A stretch of 49,499 bases of DNA. Source: Lysobacterales bacterium (GTDB taxonomy: Bacteria > Pseudomonadota > Gammaproteobacteria > Xanthomonadales > SZUA-36). The position numbers and the translations under genes are program-made. Every line of letters begins with the position of its first letter. The stretch's first letter is position 1. Where the stretch lies: assembly GCA_013042915.1 (NCBI GenBank), contig JABDPF010000084.1, forward strand, positions 1 through 49,499. The letters run 5' to 3'. Of this stretch, positions 35,621 through 46,526 are shown piece by piece. The notes beneath the pieces were generated by a model. The model was not told the origin of the DNA. It searched no databases and was given only the letters and a program-made list of their open reading frames with translations.

Positions 35621-37381
35621 TTAACTGCTGAACCGGTCGTATTCACGGACGGCGTCCTTGAGACTGAATCGTTTGCTCAGGCGGTCCGGGTTTTGATCGA
35701 CAAGGGTTTCGAAATATTCGGGGAATTTCTCCTGTGCCGTCAGCAGCGCATTCGGCGCGGTTTTGCCGAGGCCGCAACGGCAGGTCATCTGCATCATCTT
35801 GCCCCAGGACTTGACGTCCTCAATGTCGTCCCTGTGGCCGAGCTTTGCGGCGAACAGGTCCAGTTTCTTCTCGATGATGAAATTGCCGGCACGGCAGGGC
35901 GTGCACAAGCCGCAGGATTCGTGTTTGAAGAAGCTGGTGTAGTTTCGCAGGATGCCGAGAATGTCGCGCTGGCGGCTGAAGATCATGAAGGAACCGCCAC
36001 AGGGCAGATCGTCCAGCGCCAGGGCCCGGTCGGCTTCCTCAATGGAAATGCACTGGCCGGATGGACCGCTGACCTGGATGAAGTGCGGTCGGTCGGCCTG
36101 GGCCATGTCGAGCACTTCCCTCACCGTGGTACCCCACTCGATTTCATAAACACCCGGATGCCGGCAATCACCGGAAACGCTGATCAACTTGGTACCCGGT
36201 GAGGTTTCCGTGCCGGTAGTCAGGTAATGGTCAGCGCCGAGTTCGATGATCCTGGCAGCGGCGCAGAACGTCTCGACGTTGTTGATGACGGTGGGTTTTT
36301 GCAGATAGCCGCGTTGGGTCGGGAAGAAACGCTTGTTTCGGGGTTCGCCGCGCTTGCCTTCCATCGAGTTCAACAGAGCGGTCTCTTCGCCGCAGACGTA
36401 GGCACCCGCGCCGAGTTTGATATGGATGTCGAAGTGGAATCCCTTGATGCCGCCGGCATCCCTGCCCAGCAGACCCATCTTGCGAAATCGTTTGATTTCG
36501 TCTTCGAGCTTGTGCAGCAGCCACCGATATTCGGCCCGCAGGTAGATGTAACCTTCCTTTGCACCCACCGCGTACGCGGCCACGATCATGCCTTCCAGCA
36601 GCAGTCCGGGGCGCGAATTGAGCAGCACGCGGTCCTTGAAGGTGCCGGGTTCGCCTTCGTCGGCGTTGCAGACGATGTATTTGGGCTCGCCCTCTTCTGC
36701 GGCACAGAACTGCCACTTCAGCCCGGCCGGGAAAAACGCCCCGCCCTGGCCGCGCAAACCGGATTTCTTGATCTCTTCGATAACGTCGTCCGGTTGGATT
36801 GCAGCCAGTTTGGCCACCGACTTGCCATGGTCGTAATCGCGCATCAGGATGACCTTGTCTTCCTCCGGCGTATGGCGCACGTGGTCGGGGATCTCGTCGC
36901 AGATGTCGGCGGGATCGGCGCCCTGTTTCAGCTTGGCGACGATCTGCTTGACCTTGAGGCTGTTCAGATTCGTGAATGGATGGAAATTGATCAGCGCGGC
37001 CGGCTCCATGTCGCTGAGCCCGATACAGGCGGTTTCGAACAATCCGAATTGGCCGCTTGGATCGACGCTGCCGAACTGGCCGCCGGTAGCGGATTCGAAC
37101 GCTTCCTTGACGCGTTCGAAGCCTTTGTGTTCGGAAACGATGCTGGCGTTCAGGTAAACCGTGAACTCACCGGTCGGGTAACGACTGAAGAAGTGGTAAA
37201 AAGAAATCACACCTTCCACGTCAATCGTGGAGATATCCAACGCTTTTGCCGCCGCTTCGATATCTTTGAACCTGATGTGACCGTGCTCTTTTTGTACGTT
37301 CCACAGGTACGCAATCAGGTCGGTGCGCTCGAGGATCAGGTCCGGCGACTGGCCGGGCGCGGTTATCGACTTGTTGTTCAA
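35621..37381 (-). CDS. hoxF: NAD-reducing hydrogenase diaphorase large subunit HoxF
   Basis: Flavoprotein module that exchanges electrons between NAD(H) and the iron-sulfur chain. It has 586 residues (Cupriavidus HoxF about 600). Residues about 15-155 form a NuoE-like domain; about 175-560 a NuoF domain with GLRGQGGAFFPAGLKW (NADH/FMN), ADEGEPGTFKDR, GAGAYVCGEETALLNSMEG and the [4Fe-4S] motif SCGLCTPCRAGN (Cys 490, 493, 496, with Cys534 or 536). The NuoE-like part keeps only one Cys (Cys119), so it cannot hold a normal [2Fe-2S] cluster. TTG start at 37381 with AAGGAAAG upstream. First gene of the hox operon. Confidence 0.93.
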   Translation of the reverse strand: MNNKSITAPGQSPDLILERTDLIAYLWNVQKEHGHIRFKDIEAAAKALDISTIDVEGVISFYHFFSRYPTGEFTVYLNASIVSEHKGFERVKEAFESATGGQFGSVDPSGQFGLFETACIGLSDMEPAALINFHPFTNLNSLKVKQIVAKLKQGADPADICDEIPDHVRHTPEEDKVILMRDYDHGKSVAKLAAIQPDDVIEEIKKSGLRGQGGAFFPAGLKWQFCAAEEGEPKYIVCNADEGEPGTFKDRVLLNSRPGLLLEGMIVAAYAVGAKEGYIYLRAEYRWLLHKLEDEIKRFRKMGLLGRDAGGIKGFHFDIHIKLGAGAYVCGEETALLNSMEGKRGEPRNKRFFPTQRGYLQKPTVINNVETFCAAARIIELGADHYLTTGTETSPGTKLISVSGDCRHPGVYEIEWGTTVREVLDMAQADRPHFIQVSGPSGQCISIEEADRALALDDLPCGGSFMIFSRQRDILGILRNYTSFFKHESCGLCTPCRAGNFIIEKKLDLFAAKLGHRDDIEDVKSWGKMMQMTCRCGLGKTAPNALLTAQEKFPEYFETLVDQNPDRLSKRFSLKDAVREYDRFSS

Positions 37382-37862: not shown

Positions 37863-39320
37863 GTGAGTGCAAACCCGAATTCTGTAAGCGACAAAGTCTC
37901 CTACCGGGATAGCCGGCGCGCGGCGTTCCGTGTCCTCCGGCCTGGCCAGACCCATGGTCTGCGGCGCCTGCTGACCTTCGTCCTCGTGGCGGCGGCGGTC
38001 TGGGTCGCATGGCGCCTGCTCGAAGGCGTGTTTCCTCCCGAGCAGGAAGCCGTGCTGTTCCTGTTCTTGCTGGCCGTGGGCCTGTGGATCACCGAGGCGG
38101 TGCCGGCTTTCGCGGTGGGGCTGCTGATCATGGGATACCTGGTGTTCGCGCTGGGCACGACCCTCATTCATCCGGAACCATGGGATGTCGCCCCCTACCT
38201 CAACACCTGGTCCAGCCCGGTGATCTGGTTGATGCTGGGTGGCTTTTTCATGGCCGAGGGGCTGTCGCGAACCGGGCTCGACCGCCACCTGTTCCGGTTG
38301 GCCATCAAGCCGGCCGGCACCCGTCCTGCGATGGTGCTGCTGGCCGTGATGATGACCAGCGGCGTGGCGTCGATGTTCATTTCCAACACCTCCACGACGG
38401 TCTTGATGATCGGTGCCGTGCTGCCGCTGGTACGGCAGCTCGGTCGCAAGGAACCCTTCGCCAAGGCCCTGATGGTGGCGATCCCGATGGCCGCCTCGGT
38501 GGGCGGTATGGGCACTATCATCGGAAGTCCGCCCAACGCCATCGCGGCGGGCGTGGCCTCGGGTTTCGGCAAGGAAATCGACTTCGTCGAGTGGATGATG
38601 ATCGGGGCGCCCACTGCGATCATCATGATATTGATCGGATGGGTGGTGCTGTTGAAGCTGTTTCCGGCGAATACCGGCGAGGTCAAGCTGGAAATGGACA
38701 GCATGGAAGAGCCGGAGATGCCGGGCCTGCGCGAGCGCCTGCTGGTGGGCGGCATCACGGCCATCACCGTGGTCATGTGGCTGACCACACCGATACACGG
38801 CATCCACGTGGCGGCCATTTCGCTGATCCCGATCGTCGGCTTGACGATGACCCAGGTGATGGGCGCAGCGCACGTGCGCGGCCTGCCCTGGGACACGCTG
38901 ATGCTGGTGGCGGGCGGCCTGTCGCTGGGCGCCGCGGTCACCGATACCGGCCTGGCGCTGCGCCTGGCCTCGTGGCTGGAGTTCCTGACGGTGATGAACC
39001 TGGACGTGCTGGTCTATGCCACGCTGGCGCTGGTGACGGTGATACTGTCGAATTTCATGAGCAACACCGCGACGGTTTCGCTGATCCTGCCGGTCTCGGT
39101 GGCGCTGATGCCGGGCCGGGAACTGGAAATGTGTCTGATCCTGGGACTCAGCGCATCCTGCGCGCTGCTGCTGCCGGTCTCGACGCCGCCCAACGCGGTG
39201 GCTTTTGCCACCGGCGAGATCCGCACCAAGGACCTGCGCCCCGGCGGTATCCTGATGGGCCTGCTCGGTCCCGCCGTGATCATTGCCTGGGTGATGCTGC
39301 TCAGCCGCGTGGTCTTCTGA
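37863..39320 (+). CDS. SLC13/DASS family anion:Na+ symporter
   Basis: A 485-residue polytopic membrane protein with about 11-12 hydrophobic segments. It has the two SNT signature motifs of the divalent anion:Na+ symporters, SNTSTT (174-179) and SNTATV near residue 400, plus GSPPNAIA and STPPNAVAFA, the symmetric loop tips. Family members carry dicarboxylates, citrate, sulfate or phosphate; the substrate cannot be fixed from sequence. The neighbouring phosphate genes are on the other strand, so context helps little. GTG start at 37863 with a weak ACGAGG upstream. Confidence 0.88.
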   Translation: MSANPNSVSDKVSYRDSRRAAFRVLRPGQTHGLRRLLTFVLVAAAVWVAWRLLEGVFPPEQEAVLFLFLLAVGLWITEAVPAFAVGLLIMGYLVFALGTTLIHPEPWDVAPYLNTWSSPVIWLMLGGFFMAEGLSRTGLDRHLFRLAIKPAGTRPAMVLLAVMMTSGVASMFISNTSTTVLMIGAVLPLVRQLGRKEPFAKALMVAIPMAASVGGMGTIIGSPPNAIAAGVASGFGKEIDFVEWMMIGAPTAIIMILIGWVVLLKLFPANTGEVKLEMDSMEEPEMPGLRERLLVGGITAITVVMWLTTPIHGIHVAAISLIPIVGLTMTQVMGAAHVRGLPWDTLMLVAGGLSLGAAVTDTGLALRLASWLEFLTVMNLDVLVYATLALVTVILSNFMSNTATVSLILPVSVALMPGRELEMCLILGLSASCALLLPVSTPPNAVAFATGEIRTKDLRPGGILMGLLGPAVIIAWVMLLSRVVF

Positions 39321-39370: not shown

Positions 39371-40162
39371 TCAGCCGTAGCGCCCCTCGATGTAGTCCGA
39401 GGTTTCCTTGTTCTCGGGCGTGACGAACATCTTGCCGGTGTCGCTGTGCTCGACGACCTTGCCCATCAGCATGAAGATGCACTCTTCGCTGGCGCGCCTT
39501 GCCTGCGCCATGTTGTGGGTCACGATCAGGATGGTGTACTGGCCGCGCAGTTCCCAGATCAACTCCTCGACGGCCTCGGTGCCCTTGGGGTCGAGGGCCG
39601 AACAGGGTTCGTCCATCAGCAGGACGCCCGGTTTGACCGGCAGCAGCCGCGCAATGCACAGCTTCTGCTGCTCTTCCAGCGACAGCCCGGTGGCCTTGGT
39701 GTCCAGGCGGTCCTTGACCTTGTCCCACAACAGCACGGTTTTCAGCGCGCCTTCGACAATGTCGTCGGCTTCACTTTTGGAGGTCTTGGTCGCCGCGTTG
39801 TGGATGCGATGTCCAAACAACACGTTCTCGCGGATCGAGATCGGCAGCGGGTTGGGTCGTTGGAACACCATCCCGATCTGCTTGCGCACCTGCACAAGCT
39901 CCACGCCCGGGGCGTATATGTTCTCGCCCATCACGTCGATCGCACCGGTGATGCGCACATAGCCGAGGCGTTCGTTAATGCGGTTCACGCTGCGCAGAAA
40001 GGTGCTCTTGCCGCAGCCGGACGGGCCGATCATCGAGGTGATGATGCCCTGCTTGATCTTCAGATCGACGTCGAACAGTGCCTGGAAGGTGCCATACCAC
40101 AGATTCAGTTTTTCGGTGTGGATCGCCAGGCCGGCGTCCTGGCTGCCGGTGGTGTTATTCAT
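39371..40162 (-). CDS. pstB: Phosphate ABC transporter ATPase, PstB-type, with degenerate signature motif
   Basis: A 263-residue ABC ATPase for high-affinity phosphate import. Walker A GPSGCGKST (46-54), Q-loop Gln101 in VFQRPNP, Walker B LLMDEP (Asp184, Glu185) and the switch His216 in VTHNM are all canonical and PstB-like. The signature LSGGQ is replaced by LSLEE (160-164), losing both glycines and the Gln. It is the last gene of pstS-phoU-pstC-pstA-pstB2-pstB1; its ATG overlaps the stop of the second ATPase by one base (TGATG). It probably pairs with that ATPase and supplies the good Walker/H-loop half of the working site. Confidence 0.92.
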   Translation of the reverse strand: MNNTTGSQDAGLAIHTEKLNLWYGTFQALFDVDLKIKQGIITSMIGPSGCGKSTFLRSVNRINERLGYVRITGAIDVMGENIYAPGVELVQVRKQIGMVFQRPNPLPISIRENVLFGHRIHNAATKTSKSEADDIVEGALKTVLLWDKVKDRLDTKATGLSLEEQQKLCIARLLPVKPGVLLMDEPCSALDPKGTEAVEELIWELRGQYTILIVTHNMAQARRASEECIFMLMGKVVEHSDTGKMFVTPENKETSDYIEGRYG

Positions 40163-40914
40163 CAGCCGAACCTCCCGTCCACATAATCGCGGGTACGCGT
40201 GTCTTTCACCTCACCGGTGAACAGGTCTTCGGTGACACCCACCTCGACGCATCGCCCGCCCAGGAAGAACGCGGTGCGGTCGGCAAGGCGCCGGGCCTGC
40301 TGGACAAGGTTGGTGACCAGGATGATGGTCAACTCGTCACGGAGTTCCTTAAGGACATCCTCGATGCGCATCGTGGTCACGGGGTCGACGGCAATCGAAA
40401 ACTCGTCGAGCATTAACAGTTCCGGGTCCTGAGAAAGCGCCCGGGCAATGGTCAGGCGTTGCTGCTGGCCGCCCGAGAGCATGCTTCCCAGGGAGTTCAA
40501 ACGGTCCTTGACCTCGTCCCAGAGAGCGGCGCGGGTCAGGCAGCGCTCGACGATCACGTCAAGCTCGGCCCTGTCCTTTTGGCCGGCCAGGCGAGGCGCC
40601 AGGGCGACATTGTCGTAAATCGACAGCGGCAGACCGACCGGTAGCGGAAAGACCACGCCGATGCGCCGGCGCAAGCCATACACGTTGCGCACCTTTTGCA
40701 CGTTGACCCCGTTGAAGGTGATATCGCCGTCGACTTGCATGTCGGTATTGAACAGGTCCATGCGATTGACAGCCTTCAGAAATGAGGTCTTGCCCGCGTT
40801 GGCCGGGCCGATGATCCCGAAGATCTCGTGCTCCTGGATGTCAAAGTTGACACCCTCGAGGATGGTTTCATTGCCATAACTGATGGCGAGGTCCTTGACA
40901 CCGAGCTTCACCAT
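40162..40914 (-). CDS. Second PstB-like ABC ATPase with degenerate Q- and H-loops
   Basis: A 250-residue ABC ATPase. The signature LSGGQQQRL (146 on) is perfect. Walker A is GPANAGKTS (36-44), unusual but usable, and Walker B LLMLDE keeps Asp170 and Glu171. The Q-loop Gln is Pro90 (VVFPLP instead of VFQRP) and the switch His is Asn202 (LVTNLV). The defects are thus complementary to those of the neighbouring PstB. It overlaps pstA by 7 bp and the next ATPase by one base. I infer a PstB1-PstB2 heterodimer; a separate transporter is less likely because only one pstA and one pstC are present. Confidence 0.9.
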   Translation of the reverse strand: MVKLGVKDLAISYGNETILEGVNFDIQEHEIFGIIGPANAGKTSFLKAVNRMDLFNTDMQVDGDITFNGVNVQKVRNVYGLRRRIGVVFPLPVGLPLSIYDNVALAPRLAGQKDRAELDVIVERCLTRAALWDEVKDRLNSLGSMLSGGQQQRLTIARALSQDPELLMLDEFSIAVDPVTTMRIEDVLKELRDELTIILVTNLVQQARRLADRTAFFLGGRCVEVGVTEDLFTGEVKDTRTRDYVDGRFG

Positions 40915-41777
40915 TTCTTCTTACCCCGCAGGTACATGCGCAGTGCGATGGACAGGCTGTTCATCAGCAACACCATCGATATCAACACCAGGGCAACGCC
41001 GAAGGGCAGTTGCTCGGGCATGTTGGGCACCTGGGTGGAGACCACGAAAAGGTGCAAAGAGAGGGCCATGGTCTGGTCGAGCACGCCCTGCGGCAGCAGC
41101 GGCAGGAAGAAAGCGGCGCCGGTGAACATGATCGGCGCCGTCTCGCCTGCGGTGCGGGAGACCTCCAGGATCACACCGGTCAGGATGCCGGTGACCGCGT
41201 TGGGCAGCACCACGCGGCGAATGGTCTGCCAGCGGGTCGCGCCCATGTTCCAGCAGGCCTCGCGGAACGACATCGGCACCGCCTGCAGCGATTCTCGCGT
41301 CGCCACGATCACCACCGGCAGGGTCATGATGGCCAGTGTCAGGCTGGCCGCCAGGATGCTGGTGCCGAAGCCGAAGAAGATCACGAAAGCGCCAACGCCG
41401 AACAGGGCGTGCACGATGGACGGCACGCCGGCCAGGTTGATGATGGCCAGGTTGATCGAGCGGGTGAACCAGTTGTCCGGCGCGTACTCGCTGAGGTAAA
41501 TGGCTGCGGCCACGCCCAGCGGCACCGAGGCCAGCAGGGCGACCAGCACCAGCAACACCGTACCGAGCAGGGCTGGGAAAATACCTCCGGCGGTCATGCC
41601 TTTGGTAGGGCCGGTGAACAGGAACTCGAAGCTGATCATGGGCGCGCCCTTGTAGATCAGCGTGCCCAGGATCAGTGCGACGGGCAGGATCAGGATGCCG
41701 GTCATCGTGCCCAGGCCGATGCGAACCAGCTTTTGCTGGGTGATGTTCTTCTTGTTGATACTCGTTGTTTCAAACAT
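40908..41777 (-). CDS. pstA: Phosphate ABC transporter permease PstA
   Basis: A 289-residue inner-membrane permease with six hydrophobic segments. The ABC-coupling EAA-like loop is FREACWNMGATRWQTIRRVV. FTGPTKGMTAGGIFPALLGT and SRTAGETAPIMFTGAAF are PstA signatures. It forms the channel with PstC and docks on the two ATPases encoded downstream (7-bp overlap). It starts 7 bp after pstC. Confidence 0.95.
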   Translation of the reverse strand: MFETTSINKKNITQQKLVRIGLGTMTGILILPVALILGTLIYKGAPMISFEFLFTGPTKGMTAGGIFPALLGTVLLVLVALLASVPLGVAAAIYLSEYAPDNWFTRSINLAIINLAGVPSIVHALFGVGAFVIFFGFGTSILAASLTLAIMTLPVVIVATRESLQAVPMSFREACWNMGATRWQTIRRVVLPNAVTGILTGVILEVSRTAGETAPIMFTGAAFFLPLLPQGVLDQTMALSLHLFVVSTQVPNMPEQLPFGVALVLISMVLLMNSLSIALRMYLRGKKKW

Positions 41778-41784
41778 GGTTCAG

Positions 41785-42720
41785 CTAACCCTTCTTGACG
41801 CCGCGGACCACGAGGTCGGCCGCCAGGTTGATGATGAAGGTGATCACGAACAAGAAGATGCCGATCGTGAACAGCGCCTGGTAGTGGGGCGAGCCGGCCG
41901 CGGTTTCACCCAGCTCGGCGGCGATGGTGGCGGTCAGCGCGCGGACCGAGTCGAACACGCTGGTCGGGATGTTGATCGAGTGGCCGGTGGCCATCAGCAC
42001 CGCCATGGTTTCGCCGAAGCCCCGGCCCACGCCCAGCAACACCGCGCCAAGCAGGCCGTTCTTGGCCGCCGGCAGGACCACCTTGTAAATCACCTGCCAG
42101 CGCGTGGCGCCCATCGCCTCGGCCGCCTCGCGGTAGGGGTCGGGCACGGCGTTGAGCGCGTCCTCGGCGATCGAGGTCATGATCGGTGCCGCCATCAGTC
42201 CCAGGATGACGCCGGCGTTGAGCACGTTCAGGCCGACCGGCACATCGAAGGTCTCGATGATGATCGGGTTCATGATGGCCAGGCCGATGAAACCCCACAC
42301 CACCGATGGGATGGCAGCCAGCAACTCCACGGTAATCTTCAAAAACTCGCGCGTTTTACCGGAGGCGAACTCGGCGATAAAGATCGCCGCGCCGAGCGAG
42401 AACGGGATCGCGATCAGCATCGCAAGGCCGGTCACGCTGGCAGTGCCGGCGACCAGCGCCAGGATACCGAAGGTCTCCTTCGTCTCAGAGGTCGGGCGCC
42501 AGTTGGGCGAGAAAAAGAACTCCTTGAAATTGAACTCACCCAACAGGAAACCGAAGCCTTCGCGGCTGATGAACACGAAAATTCCGATAATGAAGACAAT
42601 GGCGGAAATTCCACCGATGAACACCAGCGCCTGGACGAGCTTGTCGATGTACCAGTCGAGGGTCAACCGATCGAAATCACTGCCTGCTCCGGCGGCGGTC
42701 TGCGCCATTTTTTCGCTCAT
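41785..42720 (-). CDS. pstC: Phosphate ABC transporter permease PstC
   Basis: A 311-residue permease with six hydrophobic segments after a cytoplasmic N-end of about 30 residues. PNWRPTSETKETFGILALVA, then ELLAAIPSVVWGFIGL, the coupling loop YREAAEAMGATRWQVIYKVV and GRGFGETMAVLMATGH are typical PstC. The ATG at 42720 lies 4 bp after the phoU stop. It acts with PstA as the phosphate channel. Confidence 0.95.
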   Translation of the reverse strand: MSEKMAQTAAGAGSDFDRLTLDWYIDKLVQALVFIGGISAIVFIIGIFVFISREGFGFLLGEFNFKEFFFSPNWRPTSETKETFGILALVAGTASVTGLAMLIAIPFSLGAAIFIAEFASGKTREFLKITVELLAAIPSVVWGFIGLAIMNPIIIETFDVPVGLNVLNAGVILGLMAAPIMTSIAEDALNAVPDPYREAAEAMGATRWQVIYKVVLPAAKNGLLGAVLLGVGRGFGETMAVLMATGHSINIPTSVFDSVRALTATIAAELGETAAGSPHYQALFTIGIFLFVITFIINLAADLVVRGVKKG

Positions 42721-42724
42721 GCCC

Positions 42725-43783
42725 TCAATCCTGGTTGTTTTCGCGGCCGGCCAGTAGTTCGACCAGGTCGGTGATGCGCGAGCGCAGTTCGCGATAGGCT
42801 TCAGTCAAGTCGTCGCCTGCTACCGGCCAGTTCAGCGCCGAGGTATGAAACGGCATCCGCTCGATGTAGTCGTCGTAGTGGCCGTTTACGCAGACGACGA
42901 CGTCGTAGTCGGCCAAGTCCAGTTCGAGCGACTCGAGCGGCTCGGTTTCCAGATCGCCTTCGGGCAGGCCGGTCTCCTGCAGGAACGTACGCATCGGCTC
43001 CGACAACGGCTCGGCACCATCGGGTGTGGTGACCGTGAACGCTACGGTGTCTGCATAACGGTGTCGACCGATGGCCGTGGCCAGGTGTCCCAGGCCCGAT
43101 CCCTTGCGGTCGAGGAACAGGATCCTGTACACCTTGGGGAGCTTGGCAATGCCGCGCACCGCGAACACGGTCTGGTCGCAGATGTTCTTGGACTGGTCCG
43201 CGACGCGTTTGAGCACGGTCAGCACGGCGAAGATTACGACCCGGCTGGTCCGGTTCAGCTCGCTGTCCTTTTCAAACAGGTCGTCGTAAATCGAGTCCAT
43301 GCGGGCATCCAAGCGCTTGGTGGCGTTCATCAGCGCGATCGCCTGCTCGGCGTTGCCTTCGCGGAATGCCTGGCGCGATTCGGAAAAAATCTCGATGGCC
43401 GTATCGGCCGCATCATCGATGCGTTGCGCGTACTTCTCGGGCAGAGGGTCGGAGAGTTGCAGGGCTTCGCGGGACATCGTGACCGCGTAGTCACCAATGC
43501 GCTCGAGAGTCACGTTGATACGGATGGTCGCAGCCATCTCGCGCAGCGCCCCGGCACCCGGCAGGTAGCGGGCGATGAAGCGGTGACACAATCGGTCGCA
43601 GCGACGCGAGGCGCGGTTGATCGGATGATCGCCCAGGATGATCTCGTAGGCGAGTTCCGGGTCCCGCAGCACCAGCGTTTTCTTGGCCTGGCGCAAGGCG
43701 TTTTCGACATCATCACCGATGTTCCACACCCAGTCTCGGATGGCGTTGAGGTCATTTTCCATGCGTTCTTCGAGATGACTCAT
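42725..43783 (-). CDS. phoU: PhoU fused to an ArsC/LMW-phosphatase-like domain lacking catalytic residues
   Basis: A 352-residue protein from the ATG at 43783; an upstream extension of the frame overlaps pstS and is rejected. Residues about 1-212 are the two three-helix PhoU repeats (metal motif LERIGDYAV at 93-101; the second repeat has LKRVADQ, with Lys192 where Glu is usual). Residues about 216-346 follow the ArsC/low-molecular-weight phosphatase fold: YRILFLDRKGSGLGHLATAI, DYDVVVCVNG, then LNWPVAGDDLTEAYRELRSR. The CX5R loop is lost: the Cys position is Asp225 and the Arg position Leu231. PhoU normally damps PhoR signalling and Pst transport. The gene sits between pstS and pstC rather than last. 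Confidence 0.85.
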   Translation of the reverse strand: MSHLEERMENDLNAIRDWVWNIGDDVENALRQAKKTLVLRDPELAYEIILGDHPINRASRRCDRLCHRFIARYLPGAGALREMAATIRINVTLERIGDYAVTMSREALQLSDPLPEKYAQRIDDAADTAIEIFSESRQAFREGNAEQAIALMNATKRLDARMDSIYDDLFEKDSELNRTSRVVIFAVLTVLKRVADQSKNICDQTVFAVRGIAKLPKVYRILFLDRKGSGLGHLATAIGRHRYADTVAFTVTTPDGAEPLSEPMRTFLQETGLPEGDLETEPLESLELDLADYDVVVCVNGHYDDYIERMPFHTSALNWPVAGDDLTEAYRELRSRITDLVELLAGRENNQD

Positions 43784-43847: not shown

Positions 43848-44729
43848 TCAGCCGCAGTTGACCGTGGTGGCCGGGGCATAGCCTTTTTCAAGAATGATGC
43901 ACTGGCCTTCGCTGCTCTTGATCCAGTTCATGTAATCGCCGACATAACCGGTGGGCTCGCCGTTGGTGTACATGAAAAGGGGTCGCGCGATCGGGTAGCT
44001 GTTGTCGATGGCGGTCTCCACGGACGGCGCGACGCAGGCTCCGCCCGCCTCGGTGGACACACAGGGTAACTTCACGTGGTCGACGGCATACGCCAGGCCG
44101 CTGTAACCGATTGCGCAGGGGGTTTTCTCGACAAGGTCGACCACGTCCTTGGAGCCGTGCATGTCCCGTGTGCCCAGCTTGAAGTCGCGTGAGCCCAACA
44201 CGGCGTCGCGGAAATACGCGTAAGTGCCAGAGTTGTTTTGGCGGCTGACCACCACGATTTCCTGATCCTTGCAGCCGGGAACTTCGACCCCGAGGTCGGT
44301 CCAGCTGAGGCTGGTGCCGCCGTCGCCGTAGATATCGGCCAGCTGTGAAATGCTGATCTCGTCGAGCGGGTTGTCGGCGTGAAGGAAAATCGCCAGGGCA
44401 TCGAAGCCGACCACATGCTGTACCGGTTCCTGGCCGTTGTCCTGGGCCAGCTTGAGCTCTTTGTCCTTGATGGCGCGGCTGGCGTTGGCAATGTCCACGG
44501 TGCCGTTGATCAGGGCCGCGATACCGGTGCCCGAACCACCGCCGCTCACGGCGACCACGACGCTGGGGTCCACTTGCTGGTAATTTTCTGCCCAGGCCTG
44601 GGCCACGTTGACCAGGGTATCGGAGCCTTTGTTCTGGATCACCTGGCGTTGCTCGCCACCGCCGCAGCCGGCAAGAAGGGCGGTCATGGCCGTCAGGGCG
44701 AAGGGGAGATAAGAAATTCTTGAGGGCAT
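43848..44729 (-). CDS. pstS: Phosphate-binding lipoprotein PstS
   Basis: A 293-residue periplasmic phosphate receptor. The start is the ATG at 44729 (AGGAG 7 bases upstream), which begins a lipoprotein signal peptide with lipobox LLAGC (Cys22). Phosphate-binding loops are GSDTLVNVAQAW, SGGGSGTGIAAL and SRQNNSGTYAYFRD. Apart from the lipid Cys, six more cysteines occur, all in the C-terminal half (in PGCKD, TPCAI, LPCVS, GACVAP, GQCII and the last residues VNCG), enough for three disulfides, unlike E. coli PstS. First gene of the pst operon, with a Pho box upstream. Confidence 0.93.
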   Translation of the reverse strand: MPSRISYLPFALTAMTALLAGCGGGEQRQVIQNKGSDTLVNVAQAWAENYQQVDPSVVVAVSGGGSGTGIAALINGTVDIANASRAIKDKELKLAQDNGQEPVQHVVGFDALAIFLHADNPLDEISISQLADIYGDGGTSLSWTDLGVEVPGCKDQEIVVVSRQNNSGTYAYFRDAVLGSRDFKLGTRDMHGSKDVVDLVEKTPCAIGYSGLAYAVDHVKLPCVSTEAGGACVAPSVETAIDNSYPIARPLFMYTNGEPTGYVGDYMNWIKSSEGQCIILEKGYAPATTVNCG

Positions 44730-44867: not shown

Positions 44868-46526
44868 TCAACCTTGGCTGCGCGTGATGCGGCGGACGGT
44901 CGAGAACACGCTGTCGAGAATTTCCATTACCTCCATTTCACGCGCATATGTGCGAAGGCGGTTGGGCTCGTCAACAGTCATGCGATCGAGGCCGTGTTCG
45001 ACGACTTCCCGCGAGTAGTGCGCGATTTCCTTGCGGCGCCGACGGACCTCCCGCGCGAGTTCCGCGTCCTGCCGGGTGACGGCCTTTAGCGCGTCGGCCA
45101 GCGCGTCCAGGACCATGCGGTGGAAAGCCTCCAGCACCTCCAGGGTCTGTGGCGATACCGTGACTTCTTCGTCGATACGCTTGGACGCGGAGGTCACCAG
45201 CCCGGTGGCGACCCGGTCTCCGATCTGCTCGAGCGCATTGGCGACCTGCACGAGCTGGACCATCTCTTTGGACTGTCGCTTGGAGAGCTCCCGAAGGCTG
45301 ATTTGACCCAGGTACTCGACGATGGCGATGTGCAGCGCATCGACCACCTTGTCCATTTCGGAAAAGCGCTCGAGGTCGGCGCGGGTGCCGGTCAGCGCCG
45401 CCGGCATGATATCCCGAACCATCTTGCGCACCCGCTTGCCGAGCCGCTTAATCTCCGTACGTGCCGCCTCGAGCGCCACGGCCGGGTTCTCGAGCAGGTT
45501 TTCGTCCAGATGCTTGGGCAGCATGGCTTTTTGGGGGGGTATTACCTGGTCTGGCAGGAGCCATTCTACGAAGCGCGCGATATGGGTCGTGAAACCGATG
45601 AAGATCAGCGCATTGGCGAGGTTGAAGAAAGTGTGGACATTGGCAACTTGGCGCGGCGTGTCGGCGGCCAACCGGTCCATGCCGGTCAGAGCGGTGGCGC
45701 TGGGCGAAATACTTTCAGCGAAGGCGGCCAGTTGCGGGATGAAACCAATCCAGAGCGCCACGCCGATAACGTTGAACAGCGTGTGCACCACTGCGGCGCG
45801 CTTGGCCTCGCGCGGCTTGCCGATCGAGGCCAGCCCGGCCGTCACGCAGGTTCCGACATTAGCGCCCATTGCGATCGCGATCGCGGTTTCCAGCCCGATC
45901 AAGCCCTGCGACGCCATCACGATCAGGATGCCCGTGGTCGCCGAGGACGACTGGACGATGGCCGTGAAGCCGGCGCCCACCGCCGCTCCCATCAACGGGT
46001 TTTTCATCGAAACCATGAACTCGATAAATGGTGGGAAGCTGCGCAGGGGGTAGAGCGCGTCGCTCATCAGCGCCATGCCGTAGAACACCAGGCCCAGCCC
46101 GAGGACGATCGAACCCGCCTGCTTCCAGTGCTCGGACTTGACCGTGAAGGAGACCAGGAATCCGCCGGCGATCAGGGGCAGCGCCAGCGCCGTTACCTTG
46201 AACGCCAGAATCTGGGCCGTGATCGTGGTGCCGATGTTGGCGCCGATGATCACCGCCACGCTCTGCCCCATCGTCATCAATCCGGCGGAAATGAACCCGA
46301 CCATCAGTACGGTGGTCACGGAGGATGACTGGATCACCGAGGTGACGAAGGCGCCGGTCGCCAGGCCAAGCAGGCGATTGTTGGTCATACGGGCCAGGAT
46401 GTCCTTGATGTAGTCGCCTGCGGCCGACTTCAGCGCATGTGTCATGACGTCCATGCCGAACAGGAACAGCGCGAGGCCGCCGAACAGGCCCGCCCAAAGG
46501 GTGTAAGTCGTAAACGGGTTGTCCAT
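44868..46526 (-). CDS. Na+/phosphate cotransporter family protein with C-terminal PhoU-like domain
   Basis: A 552-residue membrane protein of the NptA/YjbB family. The membrane part (about 1-310) holds the duplicated QSSS motifs (VIQSSSVTTVLMVG and IVQSSSATTGILIV) that form the Na+/Pi site, and GANIGTTITA / GANVGTCVTA. Residues about 340-545 are a cytoplasmic PhoU-like helical domain (ALEQIGDRVATG). YjbB of E. coli exports phosphate; others import it. A Pho box directly upstream places it in the phosphate-starvation regulon. It lies 138 bp upstream of pstS on the same strand but with separate controls. Confidence 0.92.
   Translation of the reverse strand: MDNPFTTYTLWAGLFGGLALFLFGMDVMTHALKSAAGDYIKDILARMTNNRLLGLATGAFVTSVIQSSSVTTVLMVGFISAGLMTMGQSVAVIIGANIGTTITAQILAFKVTALALPLIAGGFLVSFTVKSEHWKQAGSIVLGLGLVFYGMALMSDALYPLRSFPPFIEFMVSMKNPLMGAAVGAGFTAIVQSSSATTGILIVMASQGLIGLETAIAIAMGANVGTCVTAGLASIGKPREAKRAAVVHTLFNVIGVALWIGFIPQLAAFAESISPSATALTGMDRLAADTPRQVANVHTFFNLANALIFIGFTTHIARFVEWLLPDQVIPPQKAMLPKHLDENLLENPAVALEAARTEIKRLGKRVRKMVRDIMPAALTGTRADLERFSEMDKVVDALHIAIVEYLGQISLRELSKRQSKEMVQLVQVANALEQIGDRVATGLVTSASKRIDEEVTVSPQTLEVLEAFHRMVLDALADALKAVTRQDAELAREVRRRRKEIAHYSREVVEHGLDRMTVDEPNRLRTYAREMEVMEILDSVFSTVRRITRSQG

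Follow-up and report, generated by a model that had tools for sequence, protein, structure and literature searches.

The window analyzed here, 49,499 nucleotides of DNA from a Lysobacterales bacterium (GCA_013042915.1, an assembly that is 96% complete; contig JABDPF010000084.1, positions 1-49,499), encodes a fusion protein, PhoU*, in which a PhoU phosphate regulator is followed by a domain derived from ArsC-type proteins that has lost its catalytic residues. Its gene, phoU* (42725..43783, minus strand), lies within an operon for a Pst phosphate importer whose two PstB ATPases are predicted to be degenerate in complementary ways. The identity and fold of the two parts (PhoU repeats and ArsC-type domain) are close to certain. 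The evidence for these parts and for where they come from is strong, and we infer a regulatory role for the ArsC-type domain: PhoU* would serve a second, asymmetric Pst importer as its PhoU, with the dead ArsC domain serving as a docking or regulatory surface, a proposal to which we give about an even chance. Neither a PhoU fusion to ArsC or LMWPc (the Pfam low-molecular-weight phosphatase family, PF01451) nor an asymmetric PstB pair was found reported in the open PMC literature, a search that leaves aside subscription papers and database annotations.

PhoU repeats joined to an ArsC-type domain

A single open frame encodes the 352 amino acids and stop codon of PhoU*, and because the same frame recurs in many other assemblies, an assembly artefact or frameshift was ruled out as the source of the fusion. 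The N-terminal part (residues 1-211; 43151..43783, minus strand) carries two PhoU repeats, matched by PF01895 in two stretches (Pfam, E 6.1e-21), which identifies it as a PhoU-domain protein; the NCBIfam equivalog model phoU_full (TIGR02135) aligns with residues 7-211 at 118.3 bits, below its cut-off of 130.25. From about residue 212 there follows a domain with the predicted fold of ArsC and the low-molecular-weight protein tyrosine phosphatases (LMW-PTP; residues 212-352; 42728..43150, minus strand). The first-pass annotation, made from the letters of the window, had proposed this architecture, and the landmarks it quoted are present in the translation, with ILFLD closing the first beta strand and with the VVVCVNG and LNWPVAGDD...YRELR segments. 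At the place of the catalytic CX5R(S) loop, alignment to ArsC and the columns of the fusion alignment put a degenerate P-loop, DRKGSGLG (residues 225-232; 43088..43111, minus strand), with Asp225 at the position of the Cys and Leu231 at that of the Arg.

Taken alone, the last 141 residues of PhoU* returned nothing significant from Pfam or NCBIfam, and a phmmer search of PDB sequences with the single window domain gave weak matches headed by ArsC/LMW phosphatases (8p5n, E 0.0053). Against the PDB, a profile of 18 C-terminal domains reached ArsC 2l19 at E 1.3e-4, and a profile of 40 reached B. subtilis ArsC at E 1.3e-11, with all nine of its best rows being ArsC-type proteins. Because of this last match, we conclude that the domain derives from ArsC-type proteins, more than from a phosphotyrosine phosphatase. 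Among the 40 fusions, all match the PhoU family and 24 match LMWPc at E<=0.01, and one relative (L054) passes the LMWPc gathering score (30.3 versus 23.2).

The first-pass annotation had rested its case on the phosphatase fold, and the predicted structure has it. AlphaFold2 modeled the C-terminal domain alone with a mean predicted local distance difference test score (pLDDT) of 91.3 and a predicted template modeling score of 0.86 (21 aligned rows), and the whole of PhoU* with a pLDDT of 89.8 (22 rows). All 24 Foldseek matches of the domain model at E<=0.001 are ArsC or LMW-PTP, and VIA-align superposed it on pI258 ArsC (1lk0) over 124 residues (Z 16.6, root-mean-square deviation 1.9). The whole-protein model matches both PhoU 4q25 (E 1.9e-8) and ArsC 8p5n (E 3.9e-5). 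A CheY-like receiver domain, which the acidic end of the first strand (ILFLDxDN) had brought to mind, was ruled out, as ArsC/LMW-PTP proteins head both the profile and the fold searches. The profile also matched the trypanosome mitoribosome assembly protein mt-SAF26 (LMWPc domain; chain FW of PDB 6sga/7pua/9hny), perhaps another non-enzymatic setting of this fold.

Residues were counted over 40 fusion rows (alignment A7), 13 relatives added by a further alignment (A2), and second copies from two genomes (L162 and L163), for a total of 55 distinct domains; one sequence cut by a contig edge (L023/L052) was excluded from P-loop counts. The Cys position is occupied by Asp in 38, His in one, and Glu in one of the 40 rows, by Asp in 12 and Gly in one of the 13 relatives, and by Asp in both second copies; thus, Asp stands in 52 of the 55 domains, and a survey for a fusion with an intact CX5R loop found none among the 55 that keeps the Cys. 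The Arg position holds Leu (27), Gln (5), Arg (2), Lys (2), or other residues (4), so that 38 of the 40 rows have lost the Arg. As the first-pass annotation had held for the window copy, the C-terminal domain is predicted to be without Cys-based catalysis. An LMWPc search of 239 genomes found many stand-alone phosphatases, and among the matches listed the frames longer than 330 amino acids are those of G039 (498) and G354 (402); in the window's own genome, only one protein matches LMWPc at E<=10, and this stand-alone phosphatase has an intact CMGNICRS loop.

What replaced the catalytic residues is often acidic. An Asp or Glu stands at position 227 in 35 of the 40 rows, together with Asp225 in 34, and Asn228 is present in 31, so that many members read DEDNSxLS or similar. 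The window copy has Lys at 227, and its lineage (DRKGSGLG, DQPGSGLG) is mostly without the second acid and the Asn. The former anion pocket is, as judged from its residues, now acidic or neutral. By eye, the W-x-V-x-D-P acid loop is seen in A7 only in L072 and L073 (stray nearby DP pairs occur in L057, L063, L068, and L080), and no Asp-Pro acid loop was seen near the C-terminus of the window copy. Other positions are firmly kept: F223, A235, F312, W319, and L340 in all 40 rows, and H313 in 38. Compared with ArsC (PF01451; pI258 1lk0, B. subtilis 1jl3/2ipa, D. indicus ArsC2 8p5n), the C-terminal domain shares the fold (Z 14.1-16.6 among the matches listed) and the Trp of the W loop, but differs in having no Cys, in lacking the Arg and the acid loop in nearly all members, and in being joined to PhoU.

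Compared with the PhoU family (PF01895, TIGR02135; P. aeruginosa 4q25, A. aeolicus 1t72/1t8b), PhoU* is alike in its two repeats, fold, and pst context, but has the extra C-terminal domain, and its gene lies between pstS and pstC rather than last in the operon. The E-x3-D motif of repeat 1 (E94 and D98), as well as Y99, is kept in 40 of 40 fusions, including the window copy, whereas that of repeat 2 (K192-x3-D196 in the window) is intact in only eight, the remainder having E..N (16), K..D (15), or K..N (1) in place of E..D.

Spread of the fusion and its operon

The fusion was found in 19 of 151 genomes (own genome included), in three of them cut by contig edges (G021, G027, and G016). A second collection comprises 22 named records, many of them the same sequences as in the first; 16 are metagenome-assembled genomes (MAGs) of Lysobacterales, Xanthomonadales, or Chromatiales, and the collection also includes one MAG each from Thiomargarita (L056) and the Myxococcota (L058). 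Four genomes (G183, G214, G234, and G264) have two copies, and one (G797) was not counted, only its PhoU part having been matched (residues 3-213). In a tree of 40 fusion PhoU halves and 12 ordinary PhoU proteins, the fusions all fall on one side of a single branch (100/100), a result that includes flagged long branches and ordinary PhoUs drawn from the collected relatives and the own genome only. This is consistent with one ancestral fusion event. Recurring in dozens of bacteria, the fusion appears to be old and kept, and it looks like a regulatory part rather than junk.

In the window, phoU* is followed on the minus strand by pstC (41785..42720; TIGR02138, 284 bits), pstA (40908..41777; TIGR00974, 257 bits), pstB1 (40162..40914), and pstB2 (39371..40162), and is preceded by pstS, encoding the phosphate-binding protein (43848..44729, with the start assumed at MPSRIS; TIGR02136, 228.7 bits), and by a Na/Pi cotransporter gene; the pstS, pstC, and pstA scores exceed the respective cut-offs. 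The six-gene order pstS-phoU*-pstC-pstA-pstB1-pstB2 is complete in 15 of the 22 named records, while six others are cut by contig ends without contradicting it (L037, L040, L046, L051, L052, and L053) and one (L056) contradicts it. Of a set of 17 fusion stretches, 16 likewise show it complete (L134 being cut), and, of four more, L163 has all six genes, L159 is cut in pstC, and L162 and L161 deviate. L147 and L148 have genes for PhoB and PhoR (TIGR02154 and TIGR02966, over cut-off) next to the operon. The own genome has, in addition, a separate ordinary pstC-pstA-pstB-phoU set on contig C66, beside a response regulator and a kinase-like frame (read partly by eye).

The two PstB proteins were read against those of E. 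coli and of C66. For both, the PstB equivalog TIGR00972 is the best match, and neither reaches its cut-off of 343.2 bits (PstB1, 271.9; PstB2, 325.0). PstB1 has an intact signature (LSGGQQQR) together with GPANAGKTS as its Walker A, Pro for Gln in the Q-loop, Asn for His in the H-loop, and IAVD as its D-loop; PstB2 has intact Walker A and B motifs and Q- and H-loops, with LSLEEQQK in place of the LSGGQQQ signature. The Q-loop Pro and H-loop Asn occur in 18 of 18 PstB1 sequences of a first set and in 19 of 19 of a second, and LSLE in 16 of 16 PstB2 sequences of the first (one cut before the H-loop) and in 17 of 18 of the second, the remaining one being truncated; the second set includes stretches from G230 and G315, both without the fusion, and the residues after LSLE vary slightly. 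By these motifs, PstB1 and PstB2 are complementary, degenerate halves of an asymmetric ATPase. By the usual logic of ABC proteins, such a dimer would have a consensus ATP site and a degenerate one. The competent site here would combine the PstB2 core with the LSGGQ of PstB1, leaving the second site degenerate. TAP and TM287/288, examples of asymmetric, heterodimeric ABC ATPases in which one of the sites is degenerate, are exporters; the likeness of the PstB pair to them is one of sequence only, and Pst here would be a phosphate importer dependent on a substrate-binding protein. Adjacent pstB1 and pstB2 genes are also reported for a Firmicute pst-phoU locus, that of E. faecalis, in which the motifs are described as the same in both proteins (PMC12096839), in contrast to the complementary and degenerate pair of the window type. 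This complementary degeneracy may be of as much interest as the fusion itself.

The first-pass annotation had raised the question of whether the fusion travels with a tandem pstB pair, and for the most part it does. In a draw of 398 genomes from the phylum, the fusion occurs in 23, PstB1 (at least 70% identity) in 24, and both in 22, that is, in 22 of the 25 genomes having either; the other PstB matches listed are at 47% identity or below. In a draw of 369 genomes from the class, which overlaps the phylum draw in some genomes, the own genome among them, the fusion and PstB1 occur in the same eight. The exception in G244 is a contig break, the fusion contig ending inside pstC, and in G789 both the fusion contig (ending in pstC) and the PstB1 contig (ending in pstA) stop inside the operon. 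A census of PhoU domains covered 23 chosen genomes, 21 of them with the fusion; in 10 of the 21 (G745, G682, G183, G190, G198, G218, G252, G303, G889, and G892) a stand-alone PhoU frame was not found, absences that are provisional given incomplete assemblies. In the two census genomes with the PstB pair and no fusion (G230 and G315), the only PhoU parts lie inside frames of more than 600 amino acids. One operon of G230 (in L131) is followed by two frames resembling tandem OmpR/PhoB-type response regulators (L131, 2715-4858, minus strand).

Role of the added domain

How PhoU reads phosphate, and how it contacts PstB and PhoR, is still debated. E. coli PhoU is reported to bind both PstB and the PAS domain of PhoR, with R148 described as required for PhoR binding (PMC4423584), and an account of M. 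smegmatis indicates that its PhoU can act on the kinase without Pst (PMC12301784). We propose that the PhoU part of PhoU* acts as a gate on the PstB ATPases, a role that E. coli PhoU plays by binding PstB, and that the extra domain seats or orients PhoU on a PstB1/PstB2 pair that has lost its two-fold symmetry; alternatively, the extra domain may link PhoU to PhoR. The ArsC domain would in either case be a pseudoenzyme retained for its docking or regulatory surface, and for docking on the asymmetric transporter in particular we put the chance slightly below even. The first-pass annotation had suggested a module for binding or sensing through which PhoU is tuned, and this may hold.

Several observations weigh against this proposal. 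The window protein gave no match to LMWPc up to E 10, short of the gathering score. Across the 22 named records, identity to the window proteins is 78-93% for PstC and PstA and 34-66% for PhoU*. The place of E. coli R148 is Glu or Asp in 24 of the 40 fusions and is not kept in the window copy, although this alignment is uncertain and the result a hint; in the same uncertain alignment, the ordinary PhoU of C66 keeps A-R in this region. The link to the PstB pair is not strict, since the pair is present and the fusion absent in G230 (in two operons) and in G315, where pstS stands directly before pstC. Conversely, the Thiomargarita MAG (L056) has gyrB-like DNA after pstC, with pstA-pstB1 on another contig; the second copy in G234 (L162) runs pstS-phoU*-pstC-pstA with no pstB thereafter; and the second copy in G183 (L161; 6064-8697, minus strand) lies next to one PstC-like gene and another PstB2-like gene, likewise degenerate (GARKCGKST, LTDEERLRL, ATSN), in a stretch of 16 kb that shows no match to pstS, pstA, or pstB1, a gene set that appears to be either orphan or decaying. 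A strict coupling of fusion and pair in a fixed operon was accordingly softened to the frequent association described above.

The altered pocket bears on whether the domain senses a ligand instead. Given that the old anion pocket is acidic or neutral, a cation or the side chain of a protein would be a likelier ligand, if there is one, than either of the oxyanions phosphate and arsenate. A metal sensor, in which Asp225, the acid at 227, and Asn228 (perhaps with His313) bind a metal cation and PhoU* thereby senses Mg/Mn/Fe or some metal-phosphate state, is unlikely in our estimation: these four positions are conserved in 31 to 38 of the 40 rows, and E. coli PhoU has been reported to interact with metals, but the site is not general, because in the window lineage the second acid and the Asn are mostly missing. 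A cation site is thus possible for the DxDN members and not well supported for the window copy. A related idea, that the D-x-[DE]-N pocket was rebuilt from the ArsC active site as a switch for PhoU, through metal binding or phosphorylation of the Asp, seems to us quite unlikely; if true, the pocket would be a built-in state sensor for an asymmetric, heterodimeric Pst importer, and in genomes whose sole PhoU is PhoU* the Pho signal would be wired differently. Were the Asp instead the nucleophile or phospho-acceptor of an active enzyme, with a HAD-like D-x-D at the end of the first strand, the acids at the former nucleophile loop would be accounted for, but the Lys at 227 in the window copy and the confinement of W-x-V-x-D-P to two members argue against it, we know of no precedent for Asp-nucleophile chemistry in the ArsC/LMW-PTP fold, and we regard its chance as close to negligible.

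The first-pass annotation had favored the resemblance of arsenate to phosphate as a clue, and a dead ArsC pocket that binds either oxyanion and reports to PhoU would suit the ancestry of the fold in oxyanion-binding enzymes, as well as a reported linkage of arsenic islands and phosphate genes (PMC3834237). The change in pocket charge, with the P-loop Arg kept in just two of 40 and the Cys replaced by Asp in most, disfavors such ligands, and no ars gene was seen beside the operon among the open reading frames at 36.0-49.5 kb (by eye; elsewhere in the genome the search covered LMWPc only), leaving this reading very improbable. That the domain is a passive relic, carried along after the fusion and aiding only stability or dimerization, would agree with the loss of catalysis, the strong divergence, and the copies in broken operons; it is nevertheless improbable, as the complete copies read keep the domain at full length, beyond a single class of the phylum and also in a MAG of the Myxococcota, and some positions are the same in 38 to 40 of 40 rows.

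A natural PhoU joined to a pseudoenzyme, usually in the company of unequal ATPases, offers a handle on which PstB is touched by PhoU and which ATP site is controlled.

Neighboring genes

Directly upstream of pstS, the Na/Pi cotransporter (44868..46526, minus strand; TIGR00704, 244.8 bits, over cut-off) has a PhoU-like C-terminal part, matched by TIGR02135 on residues 352-522 at 46.7 bits, below cut-off; such a gene also neighbors the operon in L037, L038, and L042. On the other side, a frame that appears by eye to encode an SLC13-like sodium/anion transporter (37863-39320, plus strand) runs toward the end of the pst operon, and a similar frame follows the operon in L038 and L042. Beyond it, a frame of 586 amino acids (35621-37381, minus strand) looks, by eye from its translation, like NuoE fused to NuoF.
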